NCBI RefSeq assembly: GCF_029761935.1
Contig: NZ_CP121699.1
Coordinates: forward strand, 1,426,001 to 1,490,000
DNA: 64,000 nucleotides
Source of the DNA: Microbacterium testaceum
GTDB taxonomy: Bacteria > Actinomycetota > Actinomycetes > Actinomycetales > Microbacteriaceae
Direction: 5' to 3'
Part shown: piece after piece, positions 48,619 to 53,520 of the stretch
Numbering within the stretch: the stretch's first letter is position 1
Layout: the number at the start of each line of letters is the position of its first letter
Notes under the pieces: model-generated
Told to the model about the DNA's origin: nothing
What the model saw: only the letters and a program-made list of their open reading frames with translations
Database searches by the model: none
Program-made: the position numbers and the translations under genes

Positions 48619-50702
<2,084 letters not shown>

Positions 50703-50747
50703 GGACAATCCTTCGCTGGGCGATCGGTGGTGGGAGGAGGCGAACTC

Positions 50748-50763
50748 TCTCGATATCAAGAGA
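50748..50763. promoter_or_regulatory. Near-palindrome shared by sucCD and icd
   Basis: TCTCGATATCAAGAGA is the exact reverse complement of the 16-mer at 25660-25675. It lies about 46 bp before the sucC GTG, where a bound protein would overlap the promoter. Confidence 0.75.
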
Positions 50764-50942
50764 TCTTCGCCAGTCGACAACCCTACTAGACGGGGCTGGA
50801 GACCCCCGACCCTTGCCCCTTCGATGGGAGGGGCACAGAGCACAGAACATGCCGCGGCGCCAGTGCCCCCTCCCGCTGGATGAGCGCCGATATACCTCGA
50901 GAGCATCGGTTGCCCCGCAGCACCCTCCGAGATCGAGAAATC

Positions 50943-51824
50943 ATGAACGCCAACGCCCTGTGGAACGTCACGCTGACCGACGGTCAGCACTCGCTCGTCT
51001 TCTATGCCCTCTCGGTCGCCGGGCTCGCCCTCGCCGCGTTCGCCCTCCGATCGTTCGCCACTCAGCACGAAGTGTCAGTCCGCTACCGACCCGCGATCAT
51101 CGCGGGCATGTGCGTGGCCGCCGTCGCCTTCCTCTCGTACGTCGTCCTCGTGCTGAAATTCGATGCGGGTTACACGCAGACGAGCGAGGGGTGGGTCGCC
51201 ACTTCGAACGCGGTGTTGAGCTGGGCGCCGCGCTACTTCGACTGGACCGTCACGGTTCCGCTGCTGATCACGGAGTTGATCGCGGTGTCGACGCTCGTCG
51301 GCTCCACCGCCTCGCGCTACCGGACGATCGGCGTCTCGCTCGCCGTGGGCATGATCGTGACGGGCTTCATCGGCGGCGTCGCGATCGACGACGGCGCGAA
51401 TCTCACCGCCCTGTGGATCTGGGGCACCCTGAGTGCCCTGTGCATGGTCGGCCTCTACGTGATGTTCATTTTCATGATGATGCGTGCCCGTCGAGACATG
51501 GCCGGCTCATCGGCCCTTCCGACCTTCAACCTCACCATCGCCCTCCTCTGCGTGATCTGGTTCGCCTACCCCATCGTGTTCGCCCTGCAGGGGTTCACCG
51601 TCACCTCGGGGAGCTACGTGACGGCGCAGGTGTTGCTGAGCGTGGCGGACATCATCGCCAAGATCGGCTTCGGTGCTCTCATCCACAAGATCGCGAAACA
51701 GCGCACGGCCGAGGACATCGCGGCGGGCATCGACACCGGTCACACCGGTCCGATCTGGATGAACGGCGAGCAGGTCATGGGCCCCCGCGCCGGACGCCAG
51801 AACACCCGCTCTTCGCGTCGCTGA
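50943..51824 (+). CDS. Microbial rhodopsin, predicted light-driven proton pump
   Basis: 293 residues with seven membrane helices. Helix C reads [17 protein letters not shown]97, counter-ion D100, T104 and E111 match R82, D85, T89 and D96 of bacteriorhodopsin, giving a DTE proton-pump motif. Helix F has WFAYP, and helix G has [10 protein letters not shown] with D236 and the retinal Schiff-base lysine K240. Helix B has no His, unlike proteorhodopsin. In helix E, G161 of WGTLS aligns with bacteriorhodopsin W138, the position that is Gly in antenna-binding xanthorhodopsin. ATG 50943 gives a normal N-terminus; an in-frame ATG at 50880 is possible. No retinal-synthesis gene is in the window. Confidence 0.93.
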
Positions 51825-51847
51825 ACACCTGTGCCAGGTTGGAGGGC

Positions 51848-52381
51848 ATGCCCCCTCGCCCGTACCCGCGCACGACGCTCGCCGTGCTGGCATCCTTCTC
51901 CGCTCTCGGCTTCGTCGGTTGCACGGCGCCGACTCCGAATGCCACTTCCTCACCGACCTCGACGCAGGCGGTGCCCGCGGCGATCGACAGCGTGGAGATC
52001 ACCTTCGTCGCGGACGGCGATAAGCGCACCGTCTCGGCGAGCGTCGGCGACGGGTTGCGCGCGTGCGATGACGCGCGTACGCGGGTGACGGCTGATTCGC
52101 CGAGTCCGAATGCCGGGGTGATGGTGCCCCAGCTCAGGGACCGCGAGGAGGCGACCTCCGTCTCGGCCTGGGCGATCGACGGGTACGCCGTGCAGTTCCT
52201 GGGCGAGGGAGAGGTCACGGTCACCGGTGACGCTTTCCGCGGCACCGAAATCCACGGCACCGCGAACGCCCTCCCCGTCGGATCCGACCCCGCGCTGAAG
52301 ATCGGCGACCTGGATCTGCGAAAAGCTCCCCCCGTCGACGCGACGCTGACGTTCGCCGTCGCCTGCGGCCCGACCCGCTGA
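51848..52381 (+). CDS. Putative secreted lipoprotein
   Basis: 177 residues. A lipoprotein signal peptide ends in the lipobox-like FVGC at about residue 25, followed by a Thr/Ser/Pro-rich linker. The remainder is a soluble beta-rich domain (VEITFVADGDKRTVSASVGD; LTFAVACGPTR) with one further cysteine pair candidate (RACDDAR and VACGP). GGAGG lies only 2 nt before the ATG. It starts 23 bp after the rhodopsin gene and may be co-transcribed. I do not recognise a family. Confidence 0.75.
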   Translation: MPPRPYPRTTLAVLASFSALGFVGCTAPTPNATSSPTSTQAVPAAIDSVEITFVADGDKRTVSASVGDGLRACDDARTRVTADSPSPNAGVMVPQLRDREEATSVSAWAIDGYAVQFLGEGEVTVTGDAFRGTEIHGTANALPVGSDPALKIGDLDLRKAPPVDATLTFAVACGPTR

Positions 52382-52407
52382 CCGCATCCGTCGTGAAAGG
52401 ACCCGAG

Positions 52408-52815
52408 ATGCCCTCCGCCGTCACCCTCATCCGCGCGACCGCACTGTCCGACGCGGCGGAGTACGCGTACGCCGCCACCGCTCCGGCGAACGCGCGGCTG
52501 ATCTTCCTCGCCGGATCGTGTCCCCTGAACGACGACGGCTCGACCGCCGGCATCGGCGACTATGCGGCGCAGGCGGCGAAGTGTATCGGGACGATGACCG
52601 GCGCCTTGCGAGCGGCGGGTGCGAAGATCACCGACGTGATCAGCACGCGCGTGCTCGTGGCATCCACCCGTCAGGCGGATCTCGTCACGGCCTGGGAGGT
52701 CGTGCGCGACGCCTTCGGCGACCACGACGTCCCGAGCACGCTGATGGGTGTCACCGTCCTCGGCTACGACGACCAGCTGGTCGAGATCGAGGCGGTGGCC
52801 GCGGTCGTGGACTGA
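52408..52815 (+). CDS. RidA-family (YjgF/YER057c/UK114) protein
   Basis: 135 residues. LIFLAGSCPLNDDGSTAGIG and the C-terminal MGVTVLGYDDQLVEIEAVAA are typical. The canonical C-terminal IEARA/arginine that binds imine substrates is replaced by IEAVA, so this may belong to an Rid subgroup without enamine deaminase activity. ATG 52408 is chosen because AAAGGA lies 7 nt upstream. Role unknown. Confidence 0.82.
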   Translation: MPSAVTLIRATALSDAAEYAYAATAPANARLIFLAGSCPLNDDGSTAGIGDYAAQAAKCIGTMTGALRAAGAKITDVISTRVLVASTRQADLVTAWEVVRDAFGDHDVPSTLMGVTVLGYDDQLVEIEAVAAVVD

Positions 52816-52986
52816 CCGTCGGACGTCGGCCCTCCATCGCGTCCACCACGGGGGACGATCTGCGGCGTCACTCTCCTTGACGCCGATTCGACCCCACTGC
52901 GCGACCACCGTTCACGCGGCTCCGACGTCGACGAGTTACCGCCGCCTGGCGCCGCCACCGAGGCGCGGCTGCCTGACGACCGCCCC

Positions 52987-53478
52987 TCAGCGCTCGGAGC
53001 ACCTCCGCGTGGAGATGGGGCGGGAGCCGAACCACGCGAAGGCGATGAGCACCAGCGCCCCTCCAGACAGCACACCATCAGCGATACCCGCCGGGAGCAT
53101 GAACACCATCAGGACGAGGGTGACGACGCACATCACAAGGGTGATTCCGAGACCCCAGAGACGGTCGCACAGGATGCCGACACCCCCGAGAACCCGCAGG
53201 GTTCCGAAGATGCCGCTCATGATCATGAGCAGGTAGAGGTTGTTCTGCAGATACGGCAGGGCGAACGAGAAATGATCGCCGACGTCATCCTGATCGAGGC
53301 CGGTCGCCACGAGAACCGGGAGTGCCAGCAGCGCACCCAGCTCCATCACCACGCCTTGAGCAGTGACGAGCCACGCCGCGATACGGAAGCGCGCATCGAC
53401 TCGGCCCGCGACGTCGGTCGGCGATGCCGTCTCCGTCCCGGGCGTCCGCTGCTCGGGGGCCGACGGACCTCTGCTCAT
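52987..53478 (-). CDS. Small membrane protein of unknown function
   Basis: 163 residues with four predicted helices (about 34-57, 76-95, 98-117, 120-143). A Pro/Thr-rich cytoplasmic N-terminus precedes the first. Segments such as NNLYLLMIMSGIFGTLRVLG and LPAGIADGVLSGGALVLI do not match a family I recognise. ATG 53478 is preferred; an in-frame ATG 30 nt upstream overlaps the inverted repeat at 53503-53520. Confidence 0.65.
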   Translation of the reverse strand: MSRGPSAPEQRTPGTETASPTDVAGRVDARFRIAAWLVTAQGVVMELGALLALPVLVATGLDQDDVGDHFSFALPYLQNNLYLLMIMSGIFGTLRVLGGVGILCDRLWGLGITLVMCVVTLVLMVFMLPAGIADGVLSGGALVLIAFAWFGSRPISTRRCSER

Positions 53479-53502
53479 GAAACAACGGCGGAAGGTAGCG
53501 TT

Positions 53503-53520
53503 TAGCATGTTTGCATGCTA
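53503..53520. promoter_or_regulatory. Inverted repeat TAGCATG-TTTG-CATGCTA
   Basis: Perfect 7-bp arms around TTTG, 25 bp upstream of the minus-strand membrane-protein gene. The shape suits a dimeric repressor. No dedicated regulator gene adjoins it. The rest of 53521-53749 shows no gene. Confidence 0.5.

Follow-up and report, generated by a model that had tools for sequence, protein, structure and literature searches.

The structurally solved rhodopsins nearest to the one described here, as judged by sequence, trees, and predicted structure, are the cryorhodopsins CryoR1 and CryoR2 (8r0k and 8r0p; PMC12227055), which match it best in both sequence and structure along almost its entire length. 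The gene in question lies in a 64,000-nucleotide stretch of the Microbacterium testaceum genome (GCF_029761935.1, contig NZ_CP121699.1, positions 1,426,001 to 1,490,000), hereafter the window. Its well-supported Microbacteriaceae clade also holds Curtobacterium and Clavibacter rhodopsins, annotated just as "bacteriorhodopsin," which are ∼50 to 55% identical to it and have the same DTE motif and the same Gly at the position of W138 in bacteriorhodopsin (BR). Xanthorhodopsin (XR), GR, and Kin4B8 (3ddl, 6nwd, and 7ytb/8i2z) share the DTE pump residues and this fenestration Gly but form a separate, distant clade. Finally, Aurantimicrobium minutum and Rhodoluna lacicola, likewise Microbacteriaceae, have a rhodopsin without blh and the C50 carotenoid genes crtYe/Yf and crtEb, according to passages of PMC7734400. 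Literature searches found nothing linking rhodopsin fenestration with Microbacteriaceae, or a Curtobacterium rhodopsin with retinal and carotenoid. For Microbacterium rhodopsin genes and retinal, no title or abstract opening concerned the gene in the window, and the passages retrieved from PMC10284914 and PMC7979833 contain nothing on these proteins.

We favor, with moderate confidence, the interpretation that this gene encodes a rhodopsin of the P1 group, the Arg-less kin of cryorhodopsins, on a Microbacterium-linked branch and that its product pumps protons outward. Light would isomerize retinal on K240, and the proton would pass to D100 and be resupplied by E111, so that H+ would be moved outward; its retinal would come from neighbors by uptake or from low-level synthesis through an as yet undescribed route. 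The label P1 is borrowed from PMC12227055, whose own tree was not rerun.

The rhodopsin gene and its residues

The intact open reading frame at 50943 to 51824 scored 94.1 bits against PF01036 (cut-off, 24.6). Close homologues begin M-N-x-N-A-L-W, which favors the ATG at 50943 over another one farther upstream, at 50880. The gene and its key positions are as follows.

50943 to 51824, plus strand: rhodopsin gene, 293 amino acids, Arg-less cryorhodopsin-sister (P1) type by prediction, motif DTE (PF01036, trees, AlphaFold2 model)
51105 to 51107, plus strand: codon of G55, at the BR T46 position, occupied by the defining Arg in cryorhodopsins (alignment)
51240 to 51242, plus strand: codon of D100, at the position of the primary proton acceptor, BR D85 (alignment)
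51423 to 51425, plus strand: codon of G161, at the fenestration position BR W138/XR G156 (alignments)
51660 to 51662, plus strand: codon of K240, at the position of the retinal Schiff-base lysine, BR K216 (alignment)
51735 to 51779, plus strand: C-terminal segment, residues 265 to 279, with Gly269 where relatives have Glu and a one-residue insertion at 266 (alignment; model strands 271 to 273 and 276 to 279)

Given the PF01036 fold and K240, the predicted product is a microbial (type 1) rhodopsin. The AlphaFold2 model (mean predicted local distance difference test score, 94.8; predicted template modeling score, 0.91) contains the rhodopsin helices and the short C-terminal strand pair; its final ∼15 residues are of low confidence. 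We mapped residues in a MAFFT alignment with BR, XR, GR, Kin4B8, and thermophilic rhodopsin. The original prediction, made from the DNA letters, had proposed an intact rhodopsin with a full set of proton-pump residues, and each was found at its BR-equivalent place: R97 (R82), D100 (D85), T104 (T89), E111 (D96), D236 (D212), and K240 (K216). By this alignment, the acceptor, donor, and counterion set predicted for an outward proton pump (D100, T104, E111, D236, and R97) is complete. The helix-B His of proteorhodopsins is absent, as had been proposed, its XR position being occupied by S65, and G55 stands at the BR T46 position. A one-residue doubt in helix E was also settled: MAFFT aligned W160 with BR W137, and G161 with BR W138 and XR G156, in agreement with HMMER, which set W160-G161 on the W-G pair of GR and, when a family profile was used, on those of both XR and GR.

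A Microbacterium-linked branch beside the cryorhodopsins

Two trees placed the rhodopsin with the cryorhodopsins and their Arg-less relatives, apart from the xanthorhodopsins. The fork uniting its clade with the cryorhodopsins had a support of 93 in both, these being quick trees with Shimodaira-Hasegawa-like approximate likelihood ratio test (SH-aLRT) values only. The first tree left out four fragments (P0092, P0097, P0098, and P0113), and the second left out 16 individually named rows and roughly two-thirds of P0005 to P0045. The protein shares with CryoR1 and CryoR2 the C-terminal strand segment, E111, D236, K240, and H248 (H249 in CryoR1). In contrast to them, it lacks the Arg at the BR T46 position, has D100 where they have Glu, has no adjoining DUF7882 gene, and has its C-terminal Glu replaced. 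We rejected membership in the cryorhodopsins themselves on two of these grounds, G55 in place of the defining Arg and the lack of an adjoining DUF7882 gene. Membership in the xanthorhodopsins was likewise rejected, as the protein falls outside XR, GR, and Kin4B8 in both trees, has no helix-B His, and has changed contact positions.

Alignment and trees define a new Microbacterium-linked branch of eight rows on a long stem (1.44 in the first tree and 1.26 in the second), with the C-terminal Glu lost. The eight rows are seven distinct sequences, as L004 and L017 are one contig (5.6 kb); the name Microbacterium stands only on L016 and P0002, and L004 is known to belong to the same genus. Residue counts were made over 200 non-reference sequences, which include the window itself plus P0116 and L001 to L003 (not of this rhodopsin group); the table left out L005 (a copy of the window), L093 (a broken copy), and loci from L096 on. 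Three sets served for comparison: a sister set of 97 rows picked by rank rather than cut from the tree (P0005 to P0087 and L018 to L031, Arg rows excluded), 32 Geodermatophilaceae rows, and 26 Arg rows. Residue 269 is Gly in 8/8 rows of the branch and Glu in all 155 comparison rows (97/97, 32/32, and 26/26), although outside these sets the Glu is less constant (∼90% in an outer set). Compared with Curtobacterium and Clavibacter, the branch thus has E269G and the insertion at 266, together with P86A (P elsewhere in the three sets, except for A in 2/26 Arg rows) and F167C (C also in 2/97 sister rows), and the gene in the window stands alone.

Alignments also indicate that the rhodopsin is under purifying selection. 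The ratio of nonsynonymous to synonymous substitution rates (dN/dS) was 0.053 against L016, a locus labeled M. testaceum DE0422 whose rhodopsin is 96% identical in protein sequence (sucC, 99.5%), and 0.16 against L017 and L004.

Retinal supply

The original prediction had noted the absence of blh/brp and crt genes from the window. This was upheld for the two genes looked for, as tblastn with a crtY from Curtobacterium and with three blh proteins gave no hit there; among crt genes, the search of the window covered crtY, and the crt cluster of the genome lies outside it. A genome-wide search, which had been suggested as a check, gave no match to PF15461 or TIGR03753 (Blh) in this single-contig, 99.94% complete genome, although the PF15461 controls were silent and the TIGR03753 controls matched only under the cut-off. 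No match to the RPE65-type enzyme (PF03055) was found in the genome either. In other rhodopsin-bearing genomes, TIGR03753 matched 15 of 33 (14 over the cut-off) and PF03055 matched 4 of 25. Intact Blh and RPE65-type matches were both lacking in 14/25 genomes, and in 13 of the 23 Microbacteriaceae among the 25, counts in which G204 (a blh remnant only) was scored as lacking and G044 is only 88% complete. The same held for four of the five cryorhodopsin carriers checked.

Elsewhere in the clade, retinal genes accompany the rhodopsin. It is followed by the lycopene cyclase gene crtY and by blh in 11 loci, namely 10 of the 12 labeled Curtobacterium plus one Amnibacterium, unlike the lone rhodopsin in the window; one crtY and one blh of this cassette were confirmed by Pfam. 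In nine more Arg-less loci, blh lies near the rhodopsin but crtY gave no match; one of these nine is weak. In the Arg-bearing rhodopsin carrier Subtercola boreus, blh lies elsewhere in the genome. Curtobacterium sp. MCBA15_009 (L026:10924-11124) retains an open rhodopsin frame, but of blh just the end follows it, and crtY had no match; read from the sequence, this is a rhodopsin outliving its retinal genes.

The carotenoid cluster of the M. testaceum genome comprises, in order, a prenyltransferase (PRK13105, which matched 22/25 genomes), two CarR-domain cyclase halves, crtI, a crtB-like gene, and a polyprenyl synthase; it is apparently of the C50 type (crtEb, crtYf, and crtYe). A separate lycopene beta-cyclase is unlikely: PF05834 gave 25 matches in the genome, three above the cut-off and the best of 28.6 bits over 139 positions, and it also matched 14/14 control genomes.

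The gene set of this organism thus appears similar to that of A. minutum and Rhodoluna, and either of their two cases may apply to it. According to Nakajima et al. 2020 (PMC7734400), A. minutum, which has crtYe/Yf and crtEb but neither blh nor diox1, forms retinal by a route that is not known; for Rhodoluna lacicola, they cite work in which activity was seen only with added retinal. Blh-less Luna-1 bacteria are treated as retinal auxotrophs in a 2025 survey (PMC12422013). The parallel has limits, since the A. minutum rhodopsin is xanthorhodopsin-like and that of Rhodoluna is an actinorhodopsin, whereas the one in the window is of another family, and the measured retinal is that of A. minutum (PMC7734400). 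It is conceivable, though doubtful, that the pump is supplied with retinal that an enzyme outside both known families derives from the C50 pathway, in line with a suggestion made for Aurantimicrobium. If so, the same route would serve many rhodopsin-bearing Microbacteriaceae, including the four cryorhodopsin carriers mentioned above. Microbacterium, with an isolate (L016), joins the organisms in which retinal without Blh can be tested.

Weighing the function

Several points weigh against an outward proton pump. Known retinal sources are missing from the genome, and the Arg-less Microbacteriaceae clade of the window includes the DSE-motif rows L033, L044, and L072; DSE proteins pump poorly. Moreover, CryoR1, the closest characterized kin, acts as a very slow photoswitch and moves H+ weakly inward, and the CryoR photocycle has been called similar to that reported for DSE rhodopsins (PMC12227055).

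A slow light sensor like the cryorhodopsins and DSE rhodopsins, perhaps signaling in trans via a genomic DUF7882 protein, is an alternative that we consider possible but rather unlikely. Besides the CryoR kinship and the DSE-motif relatives, it draws on the retained C-terminal strand segment and on the genomic DUF7882 matches, which number 11 and are spread over nine places, G000:C1:1717158-1718208 among them, with three matches next to one another. The 64-kb window holds none of them, however, and the buried Arg is absent (G55). Across the 84 loci tabulated, a DUF7882 gene stood beside the rhodopsin in 21/21 Arg-bearing loci and in none of the 63 others, three of which are not of this rhodopsin group and a few of which have short flanks; on the tree a single origin suffices for the Arg, and its link with DUF7882 represents one evolutionary origin, not 21 independent ones. 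Conversely, blh was beside the rhodopsin in 0/21 Arg-bearing loci and in 20/63 Arg-less loci, plus one remnant. One rhodopsin group thus occupied two nonoverlapping settings in these loci, a DUF7882-linked Arg type and blh-linked Arg-less members.

Nor does the C-terminal segment prove a partner. DUF7882 had no match in 18/18 non-Microbacteriaceae rhodopsin genomes (13 of them in the Geodermatophilaceae set) or in Curtobacterium ammoniigenes (L021), in a search that covered all of 28 listed entries except L066. As the segment is kept in L021 and in Geodermatophilaceae, with Glu269 and Trp272 in 32/32 rows, it is independent of DUF7882 at least there, and we rejected it as proof of a DUF7882 partner. 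A segment proposed as the DUF7882 dock therefore exists in actinobacteria without a DUF7882 match, and in the branch of the window its Glu is lost. Separately, a cryorhodopsin-like copy in Subtercola boreus P27479 (L093:9974-10834) is broken by an in-frame stop; it has the Arg and a weak DUF7882-like neighbor.

The original prediction had instead read G161 as the mark of a carotenoid-antenna pump. Such a pump, with a carotenoid, perhaps C50, at the G161 fenestration, now looks very unlikely. The Gly at the BR W138 position is indeed present, and PDB entry 9jow, by its title, is a chloride pump outside the xanthorhodopsins with bound myxol; carotenoid binding is therefore possible beyond the xanthorhodopsins. 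However, the Gly occurs in 193 of the 200 sequences (the rest being A in 3, W in 3, and F in 1), including 8/8 rows of the branch, 97/97 sister rows, 32/32 Geodermatophilaceae rows, and 23/26 Arg rows, CryoR1 among them. Because it is near-universal across the collected sets, it is inherited and no mark of a dedicated antenna. The key fenestration residues of Kin4B8 are Gly153, Thr157, Tyr204, Ser208, and Tyr209, as given in PMC13093654. MAFFT placed A165, F213, G217, and F218 at the last four; XR has T, Y, M, and F there, so A165 and F213 differ from XR also. Grouping with cryorhodopsins rather than xanthorhodopsins argues in the same direction, as does the carotenoid cluster, which looks C50-type with no C40 hydroxy-carotenoid route, such as to lutein or zeaxanthin, shown; a crtZ-like hydroxylase was not searched for. 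Thus, G161 may leave a fenestration, but we see no good sign of a dedicated carotenoid, and the tempting but unsafe rule that Gly at BR W138 alone predicts an antenna can be dropped. A carotenoid test might better begin with the Geodermatophilaceae rhodopsins, which keep the Tyr in 32/32 and the Thr in 27/32 rows at the Kin4B8 anchoring positions. In three rows of the group, P0094, P0101, and P0108, the BR W138 position holds Trp, which may close the fenestration.

That the gene is an idle or decaying opsin remaining after loss of a crtY-blh cassette is highly improbable: the missing cassette, the parallel in Curtobacterium L026, and the long stem would fit, but the dN/dS of 0.05 to 0.16 and the key residues kept across the eight-row branch stand against it.

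An outward proton pump therefore remains our preferred interpretation. Worth keeping are the orphan state of the gene, the changed C terminus of its branch, and the division of one group into members linked to DUF7882 and members linked to blh.

Genomic setting of the gene

The surroundings of the rhodopsin gene are as follows.

48619 to 49521, minus strand: sucD (Pfam CoA_binding, Ligase_CoA)
49539 to 50702, minus strand: sucC, divergent neighbor (sequence matches)
50703 to 50832, no strand assigned: sucC upstream region, 88 to 91% identical in the rhodopsin-less loci L118 and L122 and in L016; the match ends before the rhodopsin (comparison)
50888 to 51809, plus strand: block common with L016, 89% identical, essentially the rhodopsin gene alone (comparison)
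51848 to 52381, plus strand: small putative lipoprotein, no Pfam family, 23 bases downstream of the rhodopsin, no match in L016 (Pfam, locus comparison)
52408 to 52815, plus strand: RidA/L-PSP-like protein (Pfam, locus comparison)

The placement between sucCD and a lipoprotein gene was as originally described, but because sucCD is transcribed away from the rhodopsin, they do not form one operon. The energy-related use suggested from this placement was not sustained, and we rejected a functional link to sucCD. In L118 and L122, the sucC start and ridA are separated by 300 and 653 bases, an interval that contains no rhodopsin; the 130 bases nearest to sucC on its upstream side match the window, and no clear rhodopsin remnant was seen. 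L016 keeps the sucC side and otherwise has only the rhodopsin in common with the window. The L004/L017 contig, from another genome of the genus, has no sucC or sucD beside the rhodopsin by tblastn, although flanks of L001 to L004 and L017 are short and the absence of neighbors there is weak evidence. Among 30 sucC loci fetched with 1.5-kb flanks from 58 genomes with a match, only the locus of the window itself had a rhodopsin of this kind within the flank. From these comparisons, the gene appears to be gained and lost as one unit at a variable site. A sigma-70 scan of 50600 to 53000 gave no site resembling a promoter, against 0.1 expected, and a single terminator-like site, against 0.8 expected. 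Farther downstream, a putative membrane protein at 52987 to 53508 has no Pfam family.

Within the genus, 5 of 198 genomes had a rhodopsin of any kind, and the kind in the window was found in its own genome and in G044. The other three genomes, G086, G131, and G139, carry other rhodopsins (L001, L002, and L003, respectively); G086 and G139 have an RPE65-type match and no Blh match. L001 has Phe at the BR W138 position and falls on a long branch with BR; L002 and L003, which possess the helix-B His, cluster with GR.
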